Assembly: GCA_016209865.1 (NCBI GenBank)
Contig: JACQVL010000210.1
Location: forward strand, 1 to 22,065
Direction: 5' to 3'
Source: Candidatus Latescibacterota bacterium
GTDB lineage: Bacteria; JAAXHH01; JACQVL01
DNA length: 22,065 bases
Positions 2 through 21,149 of the stretch are shown one piece after another. The translations under genes were made by a program, and so were the position numbers. Position 1 is the first letter of the stretch. The number at the start of each line of letters is the position of its first letter. Below the pieces are notes generated by a model. That model saw nothing but the letters and a program-made list of their open reading frames with translations. It did no database searches and had not been told where the DNA came from.

Positions 2-292
2 GTCGACGTCGAGGCGAGCCAACTCATCCCGACGCTCGTCCCCGTCGCCCTCGATACGTCCCTCTCCGTCGTCCAGCGGATGCGGAAGGCGATGGGGTTG
101 AACGCCCCACCGGCAAAGCTCAAGGGGTTCAAAGCGGCGGAATGTAAGATGTTCTGTGACGGAATGCGGACGATCCTCGACATCCGGAACGCGGTCAGCG
201 CCGAATTCGGCGCGGTCCCCGTAGCGGATGTCCTCCAGCATTTCCGGGATCTGGAACAGCAAGGGGCGGTGACGATCAGGCGGAAAAAGTAG
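2..292 (+). CDS. C-terminal fragment of an unidentified protein with a winged-helix-like tail (5' end outside window)
   Basis: The reading frame is open from the first complete codon at base 2, so the gene begins upstream of the window. An internal ATG at 80 need not be the start. About 96 residues are visible. The last 50 residues (CDGMRTILDIRNAVSAEFG, then VLQHFRDLEQQGAVTI) have the helix-helix-strand rhythm of a PqqD-like or winged-helix module, in which a stated 'residue-count/induction' helix is followed by a helix rich in Leu/Glu and a short strand. The tail ends in basic residues (RRKK). I do not recognise the parent family. It could be the C-terminal accessory domain of a hydrolase or of a peptide-modification enzyme. 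The gene converges on the TonB receptor gene, with a long inverted repeat between them. Confidence 0.55.
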   Translation, partial: VDVEASQLIPTLVPVALDTSLSVVQRMRKAMGLNAPPAKLKGFKAAECKMFCDGMRTILDIRNAVSAEFGAVPVADVLQHFRDLEQQGAVTIRRKK

Positions 293-439: not shown

Positions 440-3073
440 TTAAAACGTCACCTCGACGCCCAGCCGGACCTCGCGGGGCGGGGAGAAATGCTGGGGGTTG
501 AGGCTCAACAGTCGCCGGAGCTGGGCAAACTCAGGGGAAGCGCCGGAGAGGCGTTCCTGCCGGTACCCGTCGTCCTCGGGCGATCCGGTGTTAGCGTACA
601 CGTTGATGACGTTCCGGCGGTCGAAGAGGTTTTCGACTTCCGTGAAGAAGGCGCAGGATTGGGTCCCCACCTGGAACCGTTTATCGAGCCGCAGGTCGAA
701 GTTCAGGGTGGCCGGCAGCCGCTCCGTGTTCGGCTCACTGTGGATGCGTTCTCCGGTGGCCGTCGTGGGGGTGTACGGCATCCCGCTCCCGTAGCGACTG
801 ATGAGGTTCACGCCCCAGCCATTCAACGGGAAGCTCAGCCAGCCCTTCCGCCAGGTGGTGGGGGTCTGGGCGCTCAGGACGGCCGTGAGGGTGTGGCGTT
901 GATCGAACGCTAACGCGAATTCGCGAAGGGAGCTTGGTTTCCCCGTCTTCGTGTAGGTGTTGTACTGCTCCTGCGGGTCTGACGCGCTGCCCGTCGCCAC
1001 CGAGTACGCATACTGGATCGTGCCCGAGATGTTCCGCGTGGCCCTCCGCGTCAGGGAGAACTCCAACCCCCGGACGGTCCCGAAGTCGGCGTTCGTGAAG
1101 ATCGAATACGTCCCGCCGGGATACCGGACCTGCGTGGTGGAGGTGAGGTTCGACAAGCTCTTGTACGTCCCGGTCAGGCTTACCCGCAGATGGTCGGTCA
1201 CGAGTTGCTCAAACCCCAGTTCATACGCCACCGTCTTCTGTGGGTTGAGGTTGGGGTTGCCCACCCTGGGGGATGCGGTACTCAAATCCGCCCGGAGGTT
1301 CTCGTAGGCAAACCGGAATTCCGGGGGCTGGAAGAAGTACCCGTAGCTGAATCGCAACAGACTCCCGGCGGTCATCGGGTAGGAGAGGCCGACGCGCGGG
1401 CTGAGCCGCATTTTGGTCGGGCTGTTGATCAGCTCCGCCTGGCCGGTCGGCAGGTTGACGAAGAATCGTTCGCCGGTATCGAAATAATCGATCCGGACGC
1501 CGGCGTTCACGATCAGCCTGGAGAACTCGATCTTGTCCTGCATGTACAGCGCCCCCTCGACCGGGTTCGCGTGGTACCGCTCCCCGGAGGGGGACGGCTG
1601 CACGAACGATTTCTCATCCCACGCCAGCCGGTACCACTGCCCTTCCAGGCCGAGCCGGACCTGATTCCTGAGGGTCACCTGGCTGCTCAGGTCGACACGC
1701 AGCCCGTAGTACGTCGTCCGGGCCCGCCGGTAGATCGGCAGGAAATCCGCGCCTCCGGTAAAGGGCAGCCCGGCATACGCCCATCCCCCCTTGTAATTGG
1801 TATCGTGGATCGTCCCGTTGTACCGTCCCTGGTCGTCGACCGAATACCCCGGCCAGGCCGTCCAGTGGGTGTCGAATAGAGCGGCCGGGGCGAGTTTCGA
1901 CTGGGCGGTGTACCGGTAGAACCGGGCGGTATAGAACGTCCGCGGGCTGAGGGTATGATTGACCGCCAGGCTCAGCTCATCACTCCTGTCCCGCCGCTCC
2001 GGGAGGCCGTCTAAGTTAAAGTCATACGAGACCCCATTCTGGTCCCGATGGTCGTAGATGCCCTGCCGGCGCGTCGCCACATGGCCGCTGACCTTCACTT
2101 TCAGGAGCGGATGCACCCGGAAGACCATGTTCCCGGTCATCGTGTTGATCGTGCTCTGATGATGCGGGAGGTCATTCCCCCCCACCTTCCGTTGGCCCGA
2201 CACGAAGAACGTCCCGCTCTCCCCCAAGCGCGGCAGCGCGCCGCCCATCGTCCCTTCGACGCTCCGGCCGTTGGCGAACGCGGGCCGGCGGTACGCCCCC
2301 CGCTGGACGTCGTACTGCGGCTGCAGGCTGACCGTACTCCGCAGCCGGCCGGTAGACCCGGCCCGGCCTTCCTTGGTGATGATGTTTACGATCCCGGACA
2401 TCGCGTCCCCGTACTGGGCATCGAACCCGCCACGGTTGATCACCATCTCCTCGATCGCGTCCAGGTTGATCTGCGTGCCAATCCCGCCCAGCAGCGGGTC
2501 GTTCAATTCTTTCCCATCCAGGTAGTACGTCAATTCATCGCTCCGGCCACCCCGGACGTGGATGCCGCCTTGCCCATCCTGGACGACGCCATTCTGGAGG
2601 AGCAGCACGCCCGACAGGTCCTTCACGGGCAACCGGAGGAGTTCGTTGCTGGAAAGGACTTCGCTCGATGCCGTGAGGTCGGGGCGGATGAGCGGACGGC
2701 TGGCGGTGATCGTCACCACCTCGTTCACGTCGAGGACGGTCGTCTGGAGGTCAAAATCAGTCCGTGTCGTCAGGTCGGTATTGACCACCACCGCCGATTT
2801 CCGGATGGTAGTGTAACCGATCATCCGGGCTTCGACGGTGTACTGCCCGACCGGCACGTTGAGGATGAAGAACTTCCCCTTCAGGTCAGAGACGGTACCC
2901 AGCCGCGTCCCGACGACGACGACGCTCACCCCCGGCAAGGGATCATGGGTGGCCTGATCGACGATCACCCCGGCGAGCTTGCCGGTCGTCTCGGCTACGC
3001 TCAGCGACGGGACGAGCAGCCCCCCCAGCAGGCACAGCAGGGGCAGAAGAGGGAAGAACGGAACGCGTCTCAT
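440..3073 (-). CDS. TonB-dependent outer-membrane receptor with CarboxypepD_reg-like N-terminal domain
   Basis: This 877-residue protein is an outer-membrane active-transport channel that would import a scarce substrate using TonB/proton-motive force. An N-terminal signal peptide (about residues 1-27, basic MRR then a Leu/Pro-rich core ending SVAE) is followed by a carboxypeptidase-regulatory-like beta-sandwich (about 31-112, GKLAGVIVD to FDLQTT). A plug domain follows (about 125-236, with LPVKDLSGVLLLQNGV, IHVRGGRSDELTYYLDG and YGDAMSGIVNIITKEG). The remainder is a beta-barrel rich in aromatic strands. The last residue is Phe (VRLGVEVTF), as expected for barrel assembly. A sigma54 promoter sits 68-85 bp upstream and the adjacent operon encodes a sigma54 activator, so expression is probably two-component controlled. 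No Shine-Dalgarno-like purine stretch precedes the ATG, which is unusual here. The ligand cannot be read from the sequence. Confidence 0.93.
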   Translation of the reverse strand: MRRVPFFPLLPLLCLLGGLLVPSLSVAETTGKLAGVIVDQATHDPLPGVSVVVVGTRLGTVSDLKGKFFILNVPVGQYTVEARMIGYTTIRKSAVVVNTDLTTRTDFDLQTTVLDVNEVVTITASRPLIRPDLTASSEVLSSNELLRLPVKDLSGVLLLQNGVVQDGQGGIHVRGGRSDELTYYLDGKELNDPLLGGIGTQINLDAIEEMVINRGGFDAQYGDAMSGIVNIITKEGRAGSTGRLRSTVSLQPQYDVQRGAYRRPAFANGRSVEGTMGGALPRLGESGTFFVSGQRKVGGNDLPHHQSTINTMTGNMVFRVHPLLKVKVSGHVATRRQGIYDHRDQNGVSYDFNLDGLPERRDRSDELSLAVNHTLSPRTFYTARFYRYTAQSKLAPAALFDTHWTAWPGYSVDDQGRYNGTIHDTNYKGGWAYAGLPFTGGADFLPIYRRARTTYYGLRVDLSSQVTLRNQVRLGLEGQWYRLAWDEKSFVQPSPSGERYHANPVEGALYMQDKIEFSRLIVNAGVRIDYFDTGERFFVNLPTGQAELINSPTKMRLSPRVGLSYPMTAGSLLRFSYGYFFQPPEFRFAYENLRADLSTASPRVGNPNLNPQKTVAYELGFEQLVTDHLRVSLTGTYKSLSNLTSTTQVRYPGGTYSIFTNADFGTVRGLEFSLTRRATRNISGTIQYAYSVATGSASDPQEQYNTYTKTGKPSSLREFALAFDQRHTLTAVLSAQTPTTWRKGWLSFPLNGWGVNLISRYGSGMPYTPTTATGERIHSEPNTERLPATLNFDLRLDKRFQVGTQSCAFFTEVENLFDRRNVINVYANTGSPEDDGYRQERLSGASPEFAQLRRLLSLNPQHFSPPREVRLGVEVTF

Positions 3074-3140
3074 GGGGGAACCAGTGTATGAAGGGGACGA
3101 CCTGAATCAGGCTATGTTCTTGAATACAACCGAGATTTAC

Positions 3141-3158
3141 GCGCAAATACTGTGCCAA
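3141..3158 (-). promoter_or_regulatory. Sigma54 (-24/-12) promoter for the TonB receptor gene
   Basis: On the minus strand the sequence reads TTGGCACAGTATTTGCGC. It matches the RpoN consensus TGGCAC-N5-TTGC, with GG at 3156-3155 and GC at 3144-3143, exactly the required spacing. Transcription would start near 3131, leaving a leader of about 58 nt before the ATG at 3073. The gene immediately upstream encodes an NtrC-type sigma54 activator, which supports a functional promoter. Confidence 0.85.
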
Positions 3159-3288
3159 GACCGCTGGGCTACGGCCGGCAGGACGTCAGGACGAGATGAG
3201 ACAGCCGGGGATCGTCATCAGCAAGCCAGAGAGACGGACATCTGGCGTCAAAACGGAGCAGGATAAATCAGGCAGGACATCGACCAGT

Positions 3289-3336
3289 CGGCAAGATTTT
3301 TCATGTCCCCCTCTGAAAAGATTTGCAGGCTTGCCG
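3289..3336. repeat. Nested inverted repeat downstream of the NtrC-type regulator
   Basis: The outer arms are CGGCAAG (3289-3295) and CTTGCCG (3330-3336). Inside them TTTTTCA and TGAAAAG form a second pair of arms around a C-rich centre. It lies between the regulator stop (3410) and the sigma54 promoter (3141-3158). It could be a weak terminator insulating the receptor gene from the operon upstream, or a protein-binding site. No long T-run follows on the minus strand, so the terminator reading is uncertain. Confidence 0.35.
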
Positions 3337-3349
3337 TGTTCGAGGCGCC

Positions 3350-3365
3350 CGCCCATTCATGGGCG
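3350..3365. promoter_or_regulatory. 16-bp palindrome, candidate upstream activator site for the NtrC-type regulator
   Basis: CGCCCAT-TC-ATGGGCG is a perfect inverted repeat with a 2-bp spacer. It lies about 195 bp upstream of the -24 element of the sigma54 promoter at 3141-3158. That distance is within the usual range for enhancer sites bound by dimers of NtrC-family proteins through their Fis-type HTH. Assignment to this regulator is inference from position and symmetry. Confidence 0.5.
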
Positions 3366-3374
3366 TGTGGCCTT

Positions 3375-3404
3375 TTCGTCCTTCGTCCTTACCCCTTCGT
3401 CCTT
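3375..3404. repeat. Three direct copies of TTCGTCCTT
   Basis: Identical 9-mers occur at 3375-3383, 3382-3390 and 3396-3404, the first two overlapping by two bases. They sit just after the regulator gene's stop codon and beside the 16-bp palindrome. Their function is unknown. They could be replication-slippage products or extra binding sites. The rest of the 3074-3409 intergenic stretch shows no open reading frame that I would support. Confidence 0.45.
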
Positions 3405-3409
3405 ATTTT

Positions 3410-4747
3410 TTACAGTCTGTATTTTTTCACTTTATTCTGCATCGTCCTGACGGTCACGCCCAAGACCTTGGCGGCTTTGGTGCGATTCCCGCCCGACTCT
3501 TCTAACACTTTTTTCAACACTAACATCTCCGCGTAATCCATCTTGTCCGCCAGCGTCCTGCCCCGCTCGATGTACGACCCGACGGCCAGGGAGAAGGGCA
3601 GGTGTTCCGGCTTGATCGTCTCATCATCGCTCAACACGACCGCGCTTTCGACCGCATGCTCCAGCTCGCGGACGTTGCCCGGCCAGTCGTACTGCTGGCA
3701 GAGGGTGAGGGCGTCGGGGGAGAAACGTTTCACCGGCATCCCATTCTCGCGGCTATACTTGGCCACGAAATGCTGGATCAGCAGGGGGATGTCTTCCTTG
3801 TGCTCACGCAGAGGGGGCATGAAGATGGGGATGACGTTCAGCCGGTAGTACAGGTCCTCCCGGTAGCGACCCTCCCGGACCGCTTTCTCCAGGTCAAGAT
3901 TCGTGGCGGCGATCACCCGGACGTCGACCTTAATGAGCGTCGTCCCGCCGAGCCGCTCGAACCGGCGCTCCTGGAGCACCCGGAGGAGTTTGACCTGCAC
4001 CGTGCTGCTGATATCTCCGATCTCGTCTAAGAAGATCGTCCCCCCGTCCGCCAGCTCGAACCGTCCTTTCCGGGTCGTGCTCAACGCCCCGGTATACGCC
4101 CCTTTCTCCGTCCCGAACAGCTCGCTCTCCATCAGGTTATCCGGGATGGCGGCGCAGCTCACCTCCATGAACTGCTTCTCGTTCCGGTAACTCTTCGCAT
4201 GAATCGCCCGCGCGATCAGCTCTTTGCCGGTGCCGCTCTCCCCGCGCAGGAGGATGGTGGCGTTACTCTTGGCGACTTTCGAGATTTTTTCGAAGATGTC
4301 CCGCATCTTCGAGCTCGTCCCGATGATGACCGGCTCCGGGGCGGACAGACCGGAAGACGGCACGGCGGGCAGCCCTTCTTTCAACCGGCTTTCCTCGATC
4401 GCCCGCTGGAGAACATCTAAGAGTTGGTCGAAATCGACCGGCTTGGTCAAATAATGGAACGCCCCGTCCCGCATCGCCTGCACCGCGGTCTCCACCGTGC
4501 CGAACGCGGTCATCATGATGATCTTCGTCTCCGGACAGGCGGTCTTGATCTTGCCGACGAGTTCCAGCCCGTCAAGCCGTGGCATCTTCATGTCCGTCAA
4601 GAGGATATCAAATCGCTTTTTCTGGGCCAGGTCGAACGCCTGTTGCCCATCCCGCACCGCCGTGACATCGTACCCTTCTTCCTTCAGGATCTCGGCCAGC
4701 CCCTCAGCGGTGTGCCGGTCATCCTCTGCAATCAGAATTCTCGACAT
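3410..4747 (-). CDS. NtrC-family sigma54-dependent response regulator
   Basis: This 445-residue cytoplasmic activator has three domains in order. The receiver (1-120) has acidic AEDD at 8-10, phospho-acceptor Asp52 in LLTDMKMP, Thr80 and Lys102. The AAA+ sigma54-interaction domain has Walker A GESGTGKE at 169-176, the sigma54-contact loop GAYTGA at 216-221 (Tyr in place of the commoner Phe), and Walker B TIFLDEIGD at 237-245. A C-terminal Fis-type HTH (about 410-445) includes GNRTKAAKVLGVTVRTMQNKV. The start at 4747 is chosen because GAGGGA stands seven bases upstream and the protein then begins MSRILIAEDD. An ATG at 4762 overlapping the kinase stop (ATGA) would add five residues. It is translationally close to the kinase gene, its presumed partner. 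The likely target is the sigma54 promoter of the neighbouring TonB receptor gene. Confidence 0.93.
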   Translation of the reverse strand: MSRILIAEDDRHTAEGLAEILKEEGYDVTAVRDGQQAFDLAQKKRFDILLTDMKMPRLDGLELVGKIKTACPETKIIMMTAFGTVETAVQAMRDGAFHYLTKPVDFDQLLDVLQRAIEESRLKEGLPAVPSSGLSAPEPVIIGTSSKMRDIFEKISKVAKSNATILLRGESGTGKELIARAIHAKSYRNEKQFMEVSCAAIPDNLMESELFGTEKGAYTGALSTTRKGRFELADGGTIFLDEIGDISSTVQVKLLRVLQERRFERLGGTTLIKVDVRVIAATNLDLEKAVREGRYREDLYYRLNVIPIFMPPLREHKEDIPLLIQHFVAKYSRENGMPVKRFSPDALTLCQQYDWPGNVRELEHAVESAVVLSDDETIKPEHLPFSLAVGSYIERGRTLADKMDYAEMLVLKKVLEESGGNRTKAAKVLGVTVRTMQNKVKKYRL

Positions 4748-4758
4748 CCCCGATTCCC

Positions 4759-6618
4759 TCATCGTGGCATCGACACGTCACCCTGGAGTTCCGGGAACGT
4801 GCGTCGTGGAGCAGCCTCCCCGGCAGGAAGGGCCGGGAGCCAGACGGTGAACGTCGACCCGCGCCCCGGCTGGCTCTGCACGTCGATTAGACCGCTGTGC
4901 TTCTCGATGATCTGCTGCGCGACCGGGAGGCCCAGGCCAGTTCCGGTGGATTTCGAGGTATAGTAAACATCAAAGATGCTATCGAGCTGATGGTCTGGAA
5001 TCCCGCACCCGGTATCCGTCACCGCGATCGTGACGTACCGTCGCGTCGTCGGCGGGGCATCGTCCGCCAGATCGGCGGTCGGCCGGCGCTCCTGGTGGCG
5101 GCTGGTGATCGTCAACGTCCCGCCGCGCTCCATCGCATCGAACGCGTTCAGGATGAGGTTGAGGAACACCTGCTTCAGTTGGTTGGCATCGACCGAGGCC
5201 ATCAGCACCGGTTGCTCGTACCGCTTCCGGATCGTGATCCCCCGCTCCTCCGCCATCGCCTGGTGGATGGTGAGGACCTCGTCGAGAATCTCGTTGACGT
5301 TCTGGTCGAACACACAGAGGGCCGGCGGGCGCGCGTACGTGAGGAAGTTTTCTAACAGTTTGTCGATCCGCCGGATCTCCGACAGGATAATGTCGTAATA
5401 TTTTGCCTTCTTCTCCGAGAGCCCGCCGTTCTTCGCCATCTCGCGTTTGAGGATCTGCAGGTTGATGACCATCGAGTTCAGCGGGTTGCGCAGCTCATGG
5501 GAGACGATCGCCGCGAATTTACTCAGGGTGGCTAAGCGTTCCGCGCGCCGGAGCTGCTTCTCCTTGTCCAGGATGTTCCGCGCCATGTTGTTGAACTCGG
5601 AGGCGAGCATCGCCAGTTCGCCGTTGCCCGGCAGGGGAATCGTGTGGGTGAGTTGGCCCTGGGCGAAGAGCTGGGTGCCACGCACCAGCTCGGAGATCGG
5701 GCGGGCGATCCGCCGGGCGAAGATGATCCCGATGAACGCCGCGGCCGCCGCGCTGATGGCCAGCAGGAGGCTGACATCCCATTTCATCTCCCGCGACCGG
5801 ACGAACGCCTCTCGGGTCGGTTGTTCGACGACGACCACCCAGCCGAGCCGTTCGATCGTCGCGTACGCCGCGATATGCTCCCCGGTCGCGTTCCGGGAGA
5901 GCAGGGTTCCGCTCTGGTCCGGCCCCAGTGCCCGGCCGACATCAGATTGCCTGATGTTGTCCTGCCGGTAGACCCGTTCGCGCTGCGGATGGGCGATCAC
6001 CGTGCCGTCGGCACTGACGACATACGCGTTGCCCTGTCCGCGCCGGTTCTGGCCGCCGATCTTCACGCTGTCGACCAGGTCCCACATGTCCTTGAGGTTG
6101 ACGTCCGCCGCGATATACCCGACCACCTGGTTGAACTGGGTGATGGGCACGGTGATCGTCACCATCGGCAGACGATCATCAGAGAAGAACACCGGGGAAA
6201 TGGCCGTCTCATGGCCGTGGGGGAGGGGGAGGCGTCGCGGAGGATGGGAGAGATGGTCGAGGCGGGTGCTGGCGACCTCGCGTCCCTGCACGTCCAGCAC
6301 CGCCACCTCCCGGAACTGTTCGTGCTTCACGACGACGTTATCGATCAGCTTCTGCCGCTCCAGGGGGGTCGCGTCGAGCATCTCCATGTTATCCGCCACC
6401 TGGCGGATGATGCCGCGCGCCTGGTCGAGGTACAGCCGGATTTCGTTCCCCGCCCGTTTGGCGACTTCCAGGTTCCCGTCAGCGACCGCGGTCTCGATCG
6501 ACTGCCGGGTCGTGCGGATGAGCAGAATCCCGACGAGGAGGACAGGAATCGTGGCCAGGCTGATGTGCGACAGCAGGAGTCGTGGCCATAAGCGACCTCT
6601 GAGCTTCACCGGTGACAT
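4759..6618 (-). CDS. Membrane sensor histidine kinase (dCache-like sensor, HAMP, HisKA, HATPase)
   Basis: This 619-residue inner-membrane kinase should phosphorylate the NtrC-type regulator encoded next to it. TM1 lies at about 12-34. A periplasmic region of about 245 residues (36-280) carries dCache-type features (FREVAVLDVQGREVAST, GYIAADVNLKDMWDLV, NAYVVSADGTVIAHP, GWVVVVEQP). TM2 is at about 282-302, followed by a HAMP domain with ARPISELVRGTQLFAQG. The HisKA H-box is IVSHELRNPL with His374. The HATPase domain shows the N-box FLNLILNAFDAM (485-496), G1 DTGCGI (535-540) and G2 GTGLGL (559-564). GGAGGGG precedes the ATG by eight bases and lies directly after the stop of the solute-binding protein gene (17-bp gap). 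That arrangement indicates one transcript. Confidence 0.93.
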   Translation of the reverse strand: MSPVKLRGRLWPRLLLSHISLATIPVLLVGILLIRTTRQSIETAVADGNLEVAKRAGNEIRLYLDQARGIIRQVADNMEMLDATPLERQKLIDNVVVKHEQFREVAVLDVQGREVASTRLDHLSHPPRRLPLPHGHETAISPVFFSDDRLPMVTITVPITQFNQVVGYIAADVNLKDMWDLVDSVKIGGQNRRGQGNAYVVSADGTVIAHPQRERVYRQDNIRQSDVGRALGPDQSGTLLSRNATGEHIAAYATIERLGWVVVVEQPTREAFVRSREMKWDVSLLLAISAAAAAFIGIIFARRIARPISELVRGTQLFAQGQLTHTIPLPGNGELAMLASEFNNMARNILDKEKQLRRAERLATLSKFAAIVSHELRNPLNSMVINLQILKREMAKNGGLSEKKAKYYDIILSEIRRIDKLLENFLTYARPPALCVFDQNVNEILDEVLTIHQAMAEERGITIRKRYEQPVLMASVDANQLKQVFLNLILNAFDAMERGGTLTITSRHQERRPTADLADDAPPTTRRYVTIAVTDTGCGIPDHQLDSIFDVYYTSKSTGTGLGLPVAQQIIEKHSGLIDVQSQPGRGSTFTVWLPALPAGEAAPRRTFPELQGDVSMPR

Positions 6619-6635
6619 CGGTCATCCCCTCCACC

Positions 6636-8354
6636 TCATCGCAGCCCGGTGATGATGTACCAGGCCGACGACGGGTTCAGGAATTCTCCGGGCGTTCCCA
6701 GGTTCCCGCAGCGCGGGTCGAACGCCACGTACTGCCGGTCGATGAAGAAGAGAAACATGCACGGCTGGTCTTCGCTGATGAGCCACTGGAGACTCTGGAA
6801 GATCGAGAACAGACGCGACCGGTCCTTGATACCGTACAGGAAGCTGATGTTTCGGTCGACCTGCCGGTTGCGGTAGCCGAGGACGTTGAACCCTAAGTCG
6901 ATCCCCTCGGAATGGAACAGGCCATAGAAATCATCCGGGGTCGGGTCGAACGCCTGGGTGGACAACGCAGCGTCGTACTCCCCGATTCGGAGCCGCTGCA
7001 CCAGCTCCTTCATCTCGACGGGGACCGGGATGACATCGACGCCGATGGCGTTGAGGTTGAGCTTCACGATCCGGATGATCTTCTCGGCGGTGACCGATCC
7101 ACGCGGGAACAACAACTCGAACTGCAGCGTCCGCCCCCCCCGATCCAGGATGCCGTCCCGGTCCTCATCCCGCCAGCCCCCCTGACGGAGCAGGGCCAAC
7201 GCCTGTACCGGGTCGTACCGGAACCGGGTCGCCCCTCCGTACGCCCAGAAATCCTGATCGACCGGGCTGTGCGCCAGGTGTCCCCGTCCTAACGCCGCCG
7301 CCTGATCGATGATCCGCATCCGGTCGGTCGCGTAGACCAGCGCGCGCCGGACGAGACGGTCGGTGAACGGGGGACGCAGGGCGTTGTAGTAGATCGTCTC
7401 GAACGCTTTCTGCTGAGGCCGGAACGTCCGAATCACCGCATCGGATCGCGCGCGCCTGAGCTCCGCGAAACTCCCGGCCCGTTCGACCTCGACTACGTCG
7501 ACTTCATGCGTGATGAACGCCGCCTGCAGTTCCTCCGGGGTGGGGTAGAACTTGAACACCAGCCGGTCGAGGAACGGACGACCCTGGTGCCAGTCGAGGT
7601 TGGCGCTGAGGACGACCGTGTTGTCCCGCAGCGGCCACGTCTCAACCTTAAACGGTCCCAGGCCGACCGGCCGGCTGATGGCGGCCGCGTAATGTGCATC
7701 TGCGAAGGTGGGGCTGCCGAGCTGGTGCCGGGGGAGGATGGGGATCGTCGCCAGGTCGGGCGGGAACTCGGAGACCGGTTCCTTCATCGTGAATTTCACG
7801 GTCAGCGGGTCAACCCGTCGAACCTCAAGGATGTTGTTGAAATACCGGTAAAAGATCGGGTCGTAGATCCGGGAGCTCTTATAGAGGGTGTACGTAAAGA
7901 CGACATCATCCGCACTGAGCGGTTTGCCGTCATGGAACCGAATCCCGACGTTCAGCCGGAAGACCCAGTCGAGACCGCCTGGCAACCGCACCGGCGGGGA
8001 CGCCAGCCCGGCGCCGAGACGGCCGGTGCTACCCCGCCGGAGCAAACCGCCGCCGTAGACAAGGTCCGCGATTTCCCGTTCGACCGCCAGACTCAGATAC
8101 AGGGGATGGAAGGTCAACGGCCCGACTGCCACCCGGCCGACCGTGAGCGTCCCCCCAGAACGCCCTTCATTCCGGTTCGCGCCGATCGCCGGACACGGCG
8201 CCGCCATGCTCCAGACACACAGGATGAGGGGGAGAACAGACACCACGAGCAGCCGGCCGGACCACCCGGATCGGACAGGAGAATCGATCAATCGAAGCCC
8301 CGCTCTGGCCTGCTGGTCGGATGATCCAGCAGGGTTGAGGAACCGATGGATCAC
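6636..8354 (-). CDS. Family 5 extracellular solute-binding protein (peptide/nickel type), likely sensory
   Basis: This 572-residue exported protein belongs to the SBP_bac_5 family (DppA/OppA/NikA-like). Its family signature region is WVFRLNVGIRFHDGKPLSADDVVFTYTLY, here around residues 140-170, and PVSEFPPDLATIPILPRHQL and GLGPFKVETWPLRDNTVVL follow as is usual. A hydrophobic signal segment (RLLVVSVLPLILCVWSMAAP) lies unusually far in, after about 33 residues. The GTG at 8354 has no clear ribosome site, so the true start may be downstream, for example a TTG near the sequence encoding IDSPVR. No permease or ATPase gene accompanies it. Instead a histidine kinase follows 17 bp downstream. I infer that it either presents ligand to the kinase sensor domain or hands over substrate imported by the TonB receptor. 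A sigma70 promoter precedes it. Confidence 0.88.
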   Translation of the reverse strand: MIHRFLNPAGSSDQQARAGLRLIDSPVRSGWSGRLLVVSVLPLILCVWSMAAPCPAIGANRNEGRSGGTLTVGRVAVGPLTFHPLYLSLAVEREIADLVYGGGLLRRGSTGRLGAGLASPPVRLPGGLDWVFRLNVGIRFHDGKPLSADDVVFTYTLYKSSRIYDPIFYRYFNNILEVRRVDPLTVKFTMKEPVSEFPPDLATIPILPRHQLGSPTFADAHYAAAISRPVGLGPFKVETWPLRDNTVVLSANLDWHQGRPFLDRLVFKFYPTPEELQAAFITHEVDVVEVERAGSFAELRRARSDAVIRTFRPQQKAFETIYYNALRPPFTDRLVRRALVYATDRMRIIDQAAALGRGHLAHSPVDQDFWAYGGATRFRYDPVQALALLRQGGWRDEDRDGILDRGGRTLQFELLFPRGSVTAEKIIRIVKLNLNAIGVDVIPVPVEMKELVQRLRIGEYDAALSTQAFDPTPDDFYGLFHSEGIDLGFNVLGYRNRQVDRNISFLYGIKDRSRLFSIFQSLQWLISEDQPCMFLFFIDRQYVAFDPRCGNLGTPGEFLNPSSAWYIITGLR

Positions 8355-8412
8355 GCGGACGCTGTAGAGTCGCTCGATGAATCAGCCGGAAGGATGTCTC
8401 TCGAACGCTTAC

Positions 8413-8441
8413 AGCATAACGCCTCCTGCTCCGTTTGTCAA
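8413..8441 (-). promoter_or_regulatory. Sigma70 promoter of the solute-binding protein/kinase/regulator operon
   Basis: On the minus strand TTGACA (8441-8436) is followed after exactly 17 bp by TATGCT (8418-8413). The -35 is a perfect match and the -10 matches four of six. Transcription would start near 8406, about 50 nt before the GTG at 8354. The rest of the 8355-8665 intergenic stretch holds the AT-rich control region of the divergent DUF2089 gene. Confidence 0.75.
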
Positions 8442-8582
8442 GCCCTTTTTGCAAATCGTGACTCCTGAGAAATTTCCCCGATTGTATGAGGTTCCCCGTC
8501 TCTCCGGCGTCATTCCCGCGTAAGGGAGAATCCGCAACATTTTAAATTTAATATCAATATGAAAATCTTTATCATAAATTTG

Positions 8583-8637
8583 TAATTTTCACTTGACTAT
8601 AACATTTTTATTTATAATTTTTACTCATTGACATAAA
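8583..8637 (+). promoter_or_regulatory. AT-rich control region with imperfect direct repeats upstream of the DUF2089 gene
   Basis: About 110 bp (8538-8650) are strikingly AT-rich in a GC-rich window. Two related blocks occur 32 bp apart: TAATTTTCAC then TTGACTATAA (8583-8602), and TAATTTTTAC then TTGACATAAA (8615-8637). A possible promoter is TTGACT (8593-8598) with TAATTT (8615-8620) at 16-bp spacing. A TATAAT at 8613 is only 14 bp from that -35. The strong ribosome site AAGGAGGAA precedes the ATG at 8666. The repeats could be operators for the HTH protein encoded next to them. Confidence 0.45.
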
Positions 8638-8665
8638 TTCTAATTCATCAACAAGGAGGAAACTG

Positions 8666-9049
8666 ATGCGGAAAGTCCTGGAACGTTGTCCAAGCTGCGG
8701 CGCCCCCGTCGAGGTGACCCAGTTGAGCTGTACCGCGTGCGAGACGATCATTCACGGGCATTTCACCCCGTGTCCGTTCTGCAAGCTGTCCCCGGAGAGC
8801 GTGCGGTTTGCCGAGCTGTTCGTGCGCTTACGGGGCAACGTCAAGGAGATGGAACGCGAATTGGTCCTCTCGTACCCGACCGTGCGCGGCCGGTTGAACG
8901 GGATCATCCGGGAGCTCGGCTTCGAGCCGGACGAGGAGCCGCAAGGGGACGAGGATACGAGTCCCGCCCGTCAGGAGATCCTGGCCAGGCTCGAACAGGG
9001 AACGGTCAATGTCGCAGAGGCGGTCGAGTTGTTGAAGAAAGTCAAATAA
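8666..9049 (+). CDS. DUF2089 family zinc-ribbon/HTH protein, probable transcriptional regulator
   Basis: This 127-residue protein has three Cys pairs at the N-terminus: CPSC (8-11), CTAC (22-25) and CPFC (36-39), a zinc-ribbon arrangement. A helix-turn-helix-like stretch follows (about 46-92, FAELFVRLRGNVKEMERELVL and SYPTVRGRLNGIIRELGF), in which SYPTVRGRL fits a recognition helix. After an acidic linker, the last 25 residues (RQEILARLEQGTVNVAEAVELLKK) form a small helical module like the start of the next gene's product. This domain order is that of DUF2089. The gene ends 16 bp before the DUF4097 gene, so the two form an operon. It is presumably a cytoplasmic DNA-binding regulator, with autoregulation inferred from the repeats upstream. 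Confidence 0.85.
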   Translation: MRKVLERCPSCGAPVEVTQLSCTACETIIHGHFTPCPFCKLSPESVRFAELFVRLRGNVKEMERELVLSYPTVRGRLNGIIRELGFEPDEEPQGDEDTSPARQEILARLEQGTVNVAEAVELLKKVK

Positions 9050-9065
9050 GTTAAGGAGAGATATT

Positions 9066-10142
9066 ATGGATGAGGCACGCATGAGGATTCTTCAGATGGT
9101 CGCAGACGGCACACTCTCGGCCGAGGAGGCTGCCCGGCTGCTCGACGCGCTGCCGGGGTCGGGGACGCTGGCTACCGACGCCCCCGTCGAGGGGACCACG
9201 GCGGCGACCGGTGACGGCGGGCTGGAACACCGGCTCGCCCGGTCATTTGCCGTCGACCCTGGCGGCCGCTTCGTCGTCGAGGCGGATCGGGGCTCGATCG
9301 AAGTCCACACCTCGGAAGCCCAGACTCTCGATGTCGAGGTGATCCGCACGGCGAACACCCGGGACCCAGTGGAGGCGCAGGCGCTCTTCAGGATGGTGGA
9401 ACTCGACTTCGACCAGCAGGGCAACGACGTGTCAGTCCGGGCGCGGGTGCAGAACGAGGAACGCCACGGGTGGCACGGGGCGGAACGGCGGCTCCGGGTG
9501 CGGTTCGTCGTGACCGTCCCTCGCCGGTACAACCTCGACCTCAAGACCGCAGGCGGCCATATCGAGATCGACGACCTGGAAGGCGAAGTCCGCAGCCGGA
9601 CGGCCGGCGGCAGTGTACACATCGGTCACATCCAGGGACCGGTCTGGGGGAAGACGTCCGGCGGGGACATCGCCCTGGCCGGATGTGTGGGCACGGCGGA
9701 CCTCAAGACGTCCGGCGGGAGCATCCGGGTCGGCGCGGCGGACGGGGACGTCGTCGCGTCGACCTCCGGCGGGTCGATCACGATCCAGCGGGTCACCGGC
9801 CGGACTGTCGCCAACACCTCCGGGGGGAGTATCACCGTGGACGAGGCGCTGAACACGATCCAGGCGGTGACCTCAGGCGGCTCCGTCACCGCCCACCTCG
9901 CGCGCCAGCCGTCCGACCATTGCCGTCTGGAGACGTCCGGGGGGAACGTCGCCGTGTACCTGTCGGAGGCGGTCGGGCTCGACGTGCACGCCCGGACGAG
10001 CGGCGGGCAGGTGGTCACGGACTTTCCGGTGACCGTCCAGGGCGAGCTGCGGAAGACCGCGCTGCAAGCGAAAGTCAACGGTGGCGGCCCGGAACTGATC
10101 GCGCGGACGTCCGGCGGGAGCGTGTATCTGAGGAAGCAGTGA
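9066..10142 (+). CDS. DUF4097-type beta-helix-like protein with SHOCT-like/YvlB-like N-terminal module
   Basis: This 358-residue protein starts with a helical mini-domain (1-30, MRILQMVADGTLSAEEAARLLDAL) of the kind found at the N-terminus of YvlB/LiaX-type proteins. After a linker, a beta-rich region (about 60-358) contains at least seven turns ending in TSGG or TAGG followed by short strands (TAGGHIEI, TAGGSVHI, TSGGDIAL, TSGGSIRV, TSGGSITI and so on). This predicts a beta-solenoid typical of DUF4097. There is no signal peptide or membrane segment, so it is likely cytoplasmic or inner-face associated. The ribosome site is AAGGAGAG. By analogy with yvlB-like operons it may act in envelope-stress signalling together with the DUF2089 protein, but this is inference. 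Confidence 0.85.
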   Translation: MDEARMRILQMVADGTLSAEEAARLLDALPGSGTLATDAPVEGTTAATGDGGLEHRLARSFAVDPGGRFVVEADRGSIEVHTSEAQTLDVEVIRTANTRDPVEAQALFRMVELDFDQQGNDVSVRARVQNEERHGWHGAERRLRVRFVVTVPRRYNLDLKTAGGHIEIDDLEGEVRSRTAGGSVHIGHIQGPVWGKTSGGDIALAGCVGTADLKTSGGSIRVGAADGDVVASTSGGSITIQRVTGRTVANTSGGSITVDEALNTIQAVTSGGSVTAHLARQPSDHCRLETSGGNVAVYLSEAVGLDVHARTSGGQVVTDFPVTVQGELRKTALQAKVNGGGPELIARTSGGSVYLRKQ

Positions 10143-18623: not shown

Positions 18624-19616
18624 CTATGATGACGGTGTTTTGCCTTCCTCTGACGACCCGGACAGCGTTTCCCGCATGCGAGTATCCGCCTGGATATTCT
18701 GCATGGTATAATAATCGAGGACACCCAGACGTCCGGTTCGAAAGGCTTCCGCGATGGCCCTCGGAATTTCTGCCTCCGCCTCGACCACCTTCGCCCGCAT
18801 TTCCTGGACACGTGCCTTCATCTCTTGCTCGAGGGCGATCGCCATCGCCCGTCGTTCCTCCGCCTTTGCCTGGGCGACCTTTTTGTCCGCCTCGGCCTGG
18901 TCTGTCTGGAGCTTCGCCCCGATGTTGTCCCCGATGTCGACGTCCGCGATGTCGATCGACAGGATTTCAAACGCCGTCCCGGAGTCAAGCCCCTTCTCAA
19001 GCACGGTCCTTGAGATCCGGTCGGGGTTCTCCAGCACCGCTTTATGCGACTGGGAGGATCCAATCGTCGTGACGACCCCTTCTCCTACGCGGGCGATGAT
19101 CGTCTCCTCTCCCGCGCCCCCGATGATCTGATCGAGGTTCGTGCGGACAGTCACCCGCGACGTCGCCGTCACCTGAATCCCGTCCATCGCCACGGCCGCC
19201 ACCATCGGGGTCTGAATCACCTTCGGGTTGACGCTCATCCTCACCGCCTCGAACACGTCTCGACCTGCCAGGTCGATCGCCGCCGCTCGTTCGAACGTCA
19301 GGGGAATGGCGGCTTTGTCCGCCGCGATCAGGGCGTTCACGACCGCCGTCACGTTCCCACCAGCGAGAAAGTGGGCTTCTAACTTGTCCGCGCTGATATC
19401 CAGGCCGGCCTTTGTCGCGCTGATGAGCGACTTCAGGATGAGCGGCGGCGGCACACGGCGGAGCCGCATTCCGACGAGACTGAACAGACTGATCTGGACC
19501 TTCGCGGCGACCGCCGAAATCCAGAGACCGACCGGAATAAAGTAGCTGAACACCGCGAAAAAAACGAAGAGCGCGATGATCAGCAGGACCACAAGTCCGA
19601 GTGTCAATCCTTCCAT
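18624..19616 (-). CDS. floA: Flotillin-like protein FloA (SPFH family)
   Basis: This 330-residue bacterial flotillin organises functional membrane microdomains. An N-terminal hydrophobic hairpin (about 4-48, [42 protein letters not shown], given as its span) anchors it from the cytoplasmic side. The SPFH/YqfA core (about 55-230) includes [22 protein letters not shown] and [20 protein letters not shown], and a coiled region rich in Ala, Glu and Lys (about 240-290) drives oligomerisation. The length matches FloA/YqfA proteins. It is encoded 84 bp downstream of an NfeD gene, the usual partner, on the same strand. The C-terminal tail is variable. Confidence 0.93.
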
Positions 19617-19700
19617 GATCGCCTCCCATCATACGGTGTGGATCAGTAAACCACGGGCCCCTGATACCAGAACGATCCGGTGTGACGCTCCGTCTTCAGT

Positions 19701-21020
19701 TCAGATTTCCCGTACGACCACCCGGTTTCCGGCCACCTCCATGACCTGGATCCGATGCTCTTTAAGGATGAATTCTCCTTCCGAGACGACCTGAATGCGG
19801 CGATTGTTGAACAGGCCGATGCCCGACGGACGCAGCGGAGTCACCGCGGTCCCGACCGCTCCGATGAGACCGGCCAGATCCTCTGGGGTCCCTCGGTCTT
19901 CGCGTGTCACCGTCGCCTGGAGGATTATCCGCCGCCACAGCCTGCTCTGGGGGAGGAAGGCGAGCATGAGGAGCGACCCTGCAATCGTGAGAAGGAAGGA
20001 GACGCCGACGGTCGTCAGCGCTCGGGTGAGTGCCGAGATGTCGAAATACTGCCCACTCATCAGACTCAGCACGAGACTCACAAACATGAGCCCGAGGCCC
20101 AGTATGCCTACCAGTCCGAACCCGGGCACGAACAGGATCTCAATGAGCAGGAGCCCAGCCCCGATAAAGAACAGGATAATCTCGACCCAATCCGCCAGCC
20201 GGATGATCCAGTGGCTTCCGAAGAATAAGCCGAGCGCAAGCAAACCGATCGCGCCGGCAAGGCCCCAGCCGGGCGATTGTAGCTCGAACAGCAGGCCAAG
20301 CATTCCGAGAGTGAGCAACAGTGAACTGACGATCGGGTCTGTCACAAATCGCACCACCCGTTCCGCCCAGGTAATCTCCGGATGGATGACTTCGGCATCG
20401 CTGAGCTGGTAGAAGCGAAGGACGTCGTCGAGCGACACGGCAATCGTGTCGATGAACCCGTATCGTAGCGCTTCTTCGGCGGTTAGACTCAAGATCTTTC
20501 CTTTCGGGACGATCCCAGGGATCTCCACGTCCTCATCCACCATCGCCTCCGCAAAGTCGCTCCGGTGGCCATTCGCCTCCGCCGCGGATTTCATCTCCTT
20601 TCGAAGGTAGGACACGACCTTTTCACTCGCCTTCTGGCCCTGCAGATCGACTGGCGTGGCCGCGCCGATCGTCGCGCCAGGGGCCATCACAATGTGATCA
20701 CAGGCGATGGCGATGAGCGCTCCAGCGGACCCGGCCTCCTTGTTGATGTACGCGATCGTCCGGACCTTCGTCCCGATGAGCGTATTCTTGATCTCCGTCG
20801 CTGCATCGACGCGTCCCCCGAATGTGTTGATGTCGAGAATGACCGCGCCGGCACGGGCGGATTCTGCATCGTGGACCACACGCTCGATGAACGGAGTCAA
20901 CCCAAGATCGATCGTGCCATGAATGGGAACGACATAGACGGTCGACAGCGCGGCGATTGCGGGGCCAGCGGCAAGCGCGACACAGAGGATGATGCAGGCG
21001 TAGGCACGCGGGGAGGACAT
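19701..21020 (-). CDS. nfeD: NfeD family membrane-bound ClpP-like serine protease (long form)
   Basis: This 439-residue protein is the long NfeD type, a partner of flotillins. A signal/anchor (about 6-24) precedes a periplasmic ClpP-like protease domain (about 27-225). The likely catalytic dyad is Ser98 (KEAGSAGALIA) and Lys134 (SEKVVSYLRK); the oxyanion region is DINTFGGRVDA. Four to five membrane segments follow (about 235-365), and a C-terminal OB-fold-like domain (about 375-439) has VGTAVTPLRPSGIG and GEFILKEHRIQVMEV. The start at 21020 (MSSPRAY) is chosen because AGGAG lies eight bases upstream and the promoter at 21064-21092 lies within the alternative longer frame that would begin at 21095. 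It leads the operon nfeD-floA-membrane protein. Confidence 0.9.
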   Translation of the reverse strand: MSSPRAYACIILCVALAAGPAIAALSTVYVVPIHGTIDLGLTPFIERVVHDAESARAGAVILDINTFGGRVDAATEIKNTLIGTKVRTIAYINKEAGSAGALIAIACDHIVMAPGATIGAATPVDLQGQKASEKVVSYLRKEMKSAAEANGHRSDFAEAMVDEDVEIPGIVPKGKILSLTAEEALRYGFIDTIAVSLDDVLRFYQLSDAEVIHPEITWAERVVRFVTDPIVSSLLLTLGMLGLLFELQSPGWGLAGAIGLLALGLFFGSHWIIRLADWVEIILFFIGAGLLLIEILFVPGFGLVGILGLGLMFVSLVLSLMSGQYFDISALTRALTTVGVSFLLTIAGSLLMLAFLPQSRLWRRIILQATVTREDRGTPEDLAGLIGAVGTAVTPLRPSGIGLFNNRRIQVVSEGEFILKEHRIQVMEVAGNRVVVREI

Positions 21021-21063
21021 GGCTGAAGCTCCTGTCTCCTGGATGACTCGATAGTTGATCACA

Positions 21064-21092
21064 TATATAAACCCACTATCCTCGCTCGTCAA
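21064..21092 (-). promoter_or_regulatory. Sigma70 promoter of the nfeD-floA operon
   Basis: On the minus strand TTGACG (21092-21087) is followed after 17 bp by TATATA (21069-21064). Transcription would begin near 21057, leaving a leader of about 37 nt before the ATG at 21020. This excludes the ATG at 21095 as start. Confidence 0.7.
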
Positions 21093-21149
21093 CATCTTTG
21101 ATGCGAAGCGATGGCCCGCTCACACAGCAGGAGTAGCCAGACTTCGTCA

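Follow-up and report, generated by a model that had tools for sequence, protein, structure and literature searches.

The window analysed here is a whole contig of 22,065 bp (G000:C140) from a Candidatus Latescibacterota draft genome (G000) that is 83% complete. Four genes on its minus strand are transcribed in the order solute-binding protein (SBP), histidine kinase (HK), NtrC-type activator and TonB-dependent receptor. The first (6636-8354) encodes a 572-aa family 5 solute-binding protein (SBP_bac_5, Pfam E 6.6e-62) with a hydrophobic, signal-like stretch at its N-terminus, and is followed by the gene for a 619-aa sensor histidine kinase (4759-6618) with the Pfam architecture dCache_1-HAMP-HisKA-HATPase_c. 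The third gene (3410-4762) codes for a 450-aa sigma54 activator with Pfam matches to Response_reg, Sigma54_activat and HTH_8; its receiver, its AAA+ domain with a GAYTGA loop and its Fis-type helix-turn-helix are the features expected of the NtrC class. The last gene (440-3073) encodes an 877-aa TonB-dependent receptor with a carboxypeptidase regulatory-like domain (CarboxypepD_reg) at the N-terminus, in which the plug (PF07715) and the TonB barrel (PF00593) both score above the Pfam cut-off. These open reading frames (ORFs) and domains match those of an initial annotation of this DNA, which had described a 572-aa family 5 SBP, a dCache kinase, an NtrC-type regulator and a TonB receptor.

The first three genes are closely packed, with a gap of 17 bases between the SBP and kinase genes and an overlap of 4 bases between the kinase and NtrC genes, and the spacing from the NtrC gene to the receptor gene is 336 bases. 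A sigma70-type promoter, TTGACA-17-TATGCT, is located ahead of the SBP gene (8413-8441, minus strand) and the design TTGACA-17-TANNNT recurs at the same place in all 12 relative loci tested, in agreement with the sigma70-driven operon proposed initially. No terminator was found between the NtrC and receptor genes in the window. Transcription from the sigma70 promoter could therefore run on into the receptor gene and make its expression independent of sigma54, which counts against the explanation favoured below. An inspection by eye of the ORF lists for the window and for the loci L047 and L051 revealed no recognisable ABC permease or ATPase genes beside the SBP gene and no SusD-like ORF adjoining the receptor gene.

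Upstream of the operon, an intergenic stretch (8500-8660) that is strikingly rich in A+T and contains internal repeats separates it from a divergent gene pair (8666-10142, plus strand) encoding a DUF2089 zinc-ribbon/helix-turn-helix protein and then a SHOCT-like and DUF4097 protein with repeated TSGGS motifs. Elsewhere in the window, the minus-strand region 18624-21095 encodes a pair of membrane proteins, one FloA-like and one of the NfeD/ClpP class, as judged by ORF sequence only.

Conservation of the cluster

For the comparative analysis, we used a phylum sample of 16 genomes including G000, most of them deposited as Candidatus Latescibacterota and some as Gemmatimonadetes or Zixiibacteriota. 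Orthologs of the SBP were present in all 16 genomes, with 53-58% identity across the 15 relatives. The gene order SBP-HK-NtrC-receptor, the conservation of which had been suggested in the initial annotation as a check on its reading, was identical in 11 of the 11 relatives with a contig that spans the cluster. The cluster proteins were 52-67% identical in these relatives and the receptor orthologs 55-63% identical. Of the remaining window genes that were tested, none was present at the 11 cluster loci. The linkage of regulator and receptor is kept across the families f1 and f2 despite differing flanking genes. A contig scan with a single SBP query gave no matches, and a scan with an SBP alignment recovered only the same phylum and four distant SBPs in other phyla, which have no HK or TonB partners. 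Nor was a second SBP-HK-NtrC set found beside the other SBP5 genes of G000.

The residues needed for signalling are also retained. In the NtrC orthologs, the phospho-acceptor aspartate D57, the Walker A motif GESGTGK and ELFGTEKGAYTGA are invariant, as is the GAYTGA loop in the eight orthologs compared for it, and the SHE-RNPL, N and G boxes of the kinase are unchanged among the relatives. The gene for sigma54, rpoN, was found in 14 of 15 genomes, and ExbD in all five genomes tested, G000 included.

The receptor promoter and the search for an activator site

The receptor gene is preceded by a sigma54 -24/-12 element, TTGGCACAGTATTTGC (3143-3158, minus strand), about 70 bases before its ATG. 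Since a one-mismatch match to the sigma54 pattern turns up somewhere in 45 of 100 shuffled windows, the bare match is weak evidence. Its conservation is strong evidence, as the element is located upstream of the receptor gene in 15 of the 15 genomes for which that DNA was available, and the sigma54 promoter of the initial annotation, which had also proposed this check, was thereby borne out. Across five divergent lineages, the sequence identity was 75% inside the element, a value biased upward because the sites were chosen by pattern, against 25% in the flanks, which is the chance level. The invariant columns in this element-anchored comparison were GGCA, TTGC and a lone position at -2. The same conserved block was recovered when the window and 11 relatives were aligned with MAFFT without an anchor.

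In G006 and G008, two genomes with few contigs, the form YGGCAYRNTATTTGC has a single site, at the receptor promoter, and nearly every genome of genus g3 likewise has a single occurrence at this promoter. A looser sigma54 pattern was not enriched in G006, G008 and G009, yielding 24-30 matches as compared to 33-42 for a reversed control, and genome-wide match lists were for this reason left uninterpreted.

The search for a binding site of the activator gave no such signal. The initial annotation had noted a palindrome at enhancer distance as a presumed enhancer. The 16-bp palindrome CGCCCATTCATGGGCG (3350-3365) exists, but shuffling the intergenic region yields one equally good in 16% of cases and no counterpart was seen in the upstream sequences of the relatives' receptor genes, and we rejected it as an unsupported activator site. 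In the f2 relatives that were read, a family 2 glycosyltransferase gene is inserted between the NtrC and receptor genes (for example L051:14290-15171); the window and G014 lack it at this position. Just past the stop codon of the glycosyltransferase gene lies a strongly conserved non-coding block, with CTTTCACATCGTTCCGAAGG in most of the f2 relatives. As a candidate activator site this TTTC-N9/10-GAA block was dropped, given that its spacing varies and that it is missing in the window. No motif was shared by the upstream blocks of the receptor gene and of a second TonB operon described below, as compared by eye. No activator-binding site for NtrC could be identified in these sequences, which counts against the favoured explanation.

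A proposed circuit and its alternatives

Our preferred reading, to which we assign a probability of roughly 0.6, is that a whole three-component circuit controls the TonB receptor via sigma54. In such a circuit, the sigma70 promoter would maintain basal levels of the binding protein, the kinase and the activator. A periplasmic ligand would be bound by the family 5 SBP, the SBP would then engage the kinase at its dCache domain, and the kinase would phosphorylate the NtrC-type activator. The activator would remodel sigma54-RNA polymerase at the -24/-12 promoter of the receptor gene, and the receptor would import more of the same ligand. The parts, their order, both promoters and the intact catalytic and sigma54-contact motifs are established by the DNA and its conservation. 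We have moderate confidence that the SBP signals through the adjacent kinase and, separately, moderate confidence that the sensed ligand is also the imported substrate of the receptor. Of the sense-and-import circuit described in the initial annotation, the path from kinase and activator to the receptor via sigma54 is a well-supported inference, whereas the palindrome is not supported. The term self-contained was too strong, since sigma54, ExbB/D-TonB and an inner-membrane transporter, if there is one, would be supplied by genes elsewhere.

Direct binding of small ligands is common among dCache domains, and the kinase could sense its ligand without a partner. The SBP would then serve uptake, carrying the substrate imported by the receptor to an ABC permease with genes elsewhere. 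We consider this case unlikely; sigma54 control of the receptor would hold in it all the same. The constitutive-looking promoter of the SBP gene and its co-transcription with the regulators are compatible with a part in uptake, but fit a sensor role equally well. The loci that were read show no ABC permease gene next to the cluster, and in every relative the SBP gene is located in the operon of the regulators rather than with an importer, both of which argue against a mere uptake function. A survey of characterised SBP-kinase couples bears on both sides: the genes are close to each other in 10 of 11 couples, which speaks for a signalling pair, while some neighbouring sbp and kinase genes encode proteins that do not interact (PMC11113362). 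It is for the latter reason that the SBP sensing step is held with no more than moderate confidence.

A second, unlinked TonB/PorV operon was identified in 14 of the 15 genomes searched and was not found in G000. It encodes a TonB-like receptor, then a large protein of no assigned family and then a PorV-like protein (L188:786-8183; G006:C2). All 14 upstream regions read contain a near-perfect sigma54 element of the TGGCACGNNGTTTGC form, located about 280 bases ahead of the start codon, and no activator gene was present near the operon in two loci read. Two receptor classes of the phylum are identified in this way as likely sigma54 targets. It is a more doubtful proposition that sigma54 in this phylum is chiefly a switch for outer-membrane import and that the three-component system of the window also controls the distant TonB/PorV operon of the relatives. 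If true, one periplasmic binding protein would set the repertoire of outer-membrane gates.

The equally good sigma54 element of this operon, with no activator nearby, can also be taken to mean that another activator serves the receptor promoter, or that the NtrC mainly serves other promoters, such as that of the TonB/PorV operon, its adjacency to the receptor gene being an ancestral relic. The 14 strong sigma54-activator domains in G000 and the failure to find a shared activator-binding site point in the same direction. We nevertheless regard this as improbable: in G006 and G008, the least fragmented genomes, there are three strong sigma54-activator domains each, of which one is this NtrC and the other two belong to one adjacent pair elsewhere, and regulator and receptor stay linked in both f1 and f2 although the flanking genes differ. 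Taken together, the intact motifs, rpoN, ExbD and the genomes with three activators make an action of NtrC at this promoter likely, and we have strong confidence in this step of the preferred circuit. The adjacent pair formed by the other two activators of G006 and G008, both of them response-regulator/sigma54-activator genes, was observed at L173:3780-6969 and at G006:C1 near 2057353-2059476.

An envelope or surface function of the cluster (glycosylation, a cell-surface protein), with the TonB-like protein as a structural or secretion-related barrel, would accommodate the glycosyltransferase gene of the f2 relatives, the PorV-like protein of the second sigma54-TonB operon and the proposal that sigma54 controls the bacterial exterior (PMC3162934), but is highly improbable since neither the window nor G014 has the glycosyltransferase gene at this position, the plug, barrel and ExbD are all present and the SBP comes from an import family.

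As for the ligand of the preferred circuit, the closest solved sequence to the SBP in a profile comparison was the oligopeptide-binding AppA (1xoc_A, E 3.2e-72), followed by heme-binding protein A and then by dipeptide-binding proteins. Members of SBP family 5 also bind nickel, heme and sugars. The predicted structure of the SBP (AlphaFold, pLDDT 40) was too poor for searching, so the ligand class rests on sequence similarity. Downstream of the receptor gene, the window contains the C-terminal end of a convergent gene (2-292, plus strand), most of which, including its 5' part, lies beyond the contig end. Over 92 aa, its product shares 64% identity with the C-terminal end of the protein encoded at L047:13456-15333, a Pfam match to Peptidase_M28; this conserved C-terminal part is outside the M28 domain and alone matches no Pfam model. 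The same convergent M28-relative neighbour follows the receptor gene in G001 and G015 (L178) and spans three families (f1, f2/g2 and f3), and is absent from the receptor-adjacent site in the genera g3 and g4. This neighbour and the oligopeptide-type SBP suggest peptides as the ligand. An oligopeptide or peptide-like compound is our best guess, a tentative one at somewhat less than even odds, and we hold it with weak to moderate confidence.

Comparison with known systems

The sequence family of the cluster SBP is that of the oligopeptide-binding proteins AppA and DppA, which are encoded with ABC permeases, whereas the genes that accompany the SBP in the cluster are those for a kinase and an activator. 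In the SusC/SusD loci of Bacteroidetes, a hybrid two-component kinase senses a periplasmic ligand and induces a TonB-dependent importer. These loci differ from the cluster in having a hybrid sensor-regulator with AraC-type output, without a separate binding protein or sigma54, and no SusD-like gene was seen in the cluster.

The AioX-AioS-AioR/aioBA system combines a periplasmic binding protein, a kinase and an NtrC-family activator with a target gene that has a -24/-12 promoter, and resembles the cluster in its three-component signalling and, in alpha-Proteobacteria, in its gene order (PMC3834237). The cluster shares with it a secreted binding protein, kinase and sigma54 regulator encoded together and a conserved -24/-12 element before the adjacent target. 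However, AioX binds arsenic oxyanions and its system acts on arsenite oxidase (PMC3834237), whereas the binding protein here is of the SBP_bac_5 family and has a TonB receptor as its adjacent target, and the cluster can be ruled out as AioXSR proper. Moreover, two conserved palindrome-like sites were reported for AioXSR. Such activator sites would be expected 100-200 bases upstream of the target; the window showed only the chance-level palindrome, with none seen in common with the relatives. The aioXSR set was present only in Proteobacteria in that survey (PMC3834237).

In CuaD-CuaS-CuaR/cuaABC, a dedicated signalling SBP encoded beside a two-component system induces, like the one proposed here, the uptake genes for its own ligand (PMC10384115). 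The organism is a clostridium without an outer membrane, the target is a cellobiose ABC importer, and an NtrC/sigma54 element is not named in the text consulted (PMC10384115). With AioXSR (PMC3834237) and CuaDSR (PMC10384115), the logic of the circuit is already known. The initial annotation had considered the arrangement not to be a described system. As far as we found this holds for the set of parts, but not for the logic: a family 5 SBP combined with sigma54 control of a TonB receptor was not found in an open-access library searched for it, which is not proof of absence. What is new is that the output is a TonB receptor, the likely input being a family 5 binding protein. The cluster would then represent ordinary parts with an unusual output, a TonB receptor under sigma54 control by a linked binding protein, kinase and activator, and its conservation across families of an uncultured phylum provides a testable handle on uptake and on the regulation of outer-membrane import.
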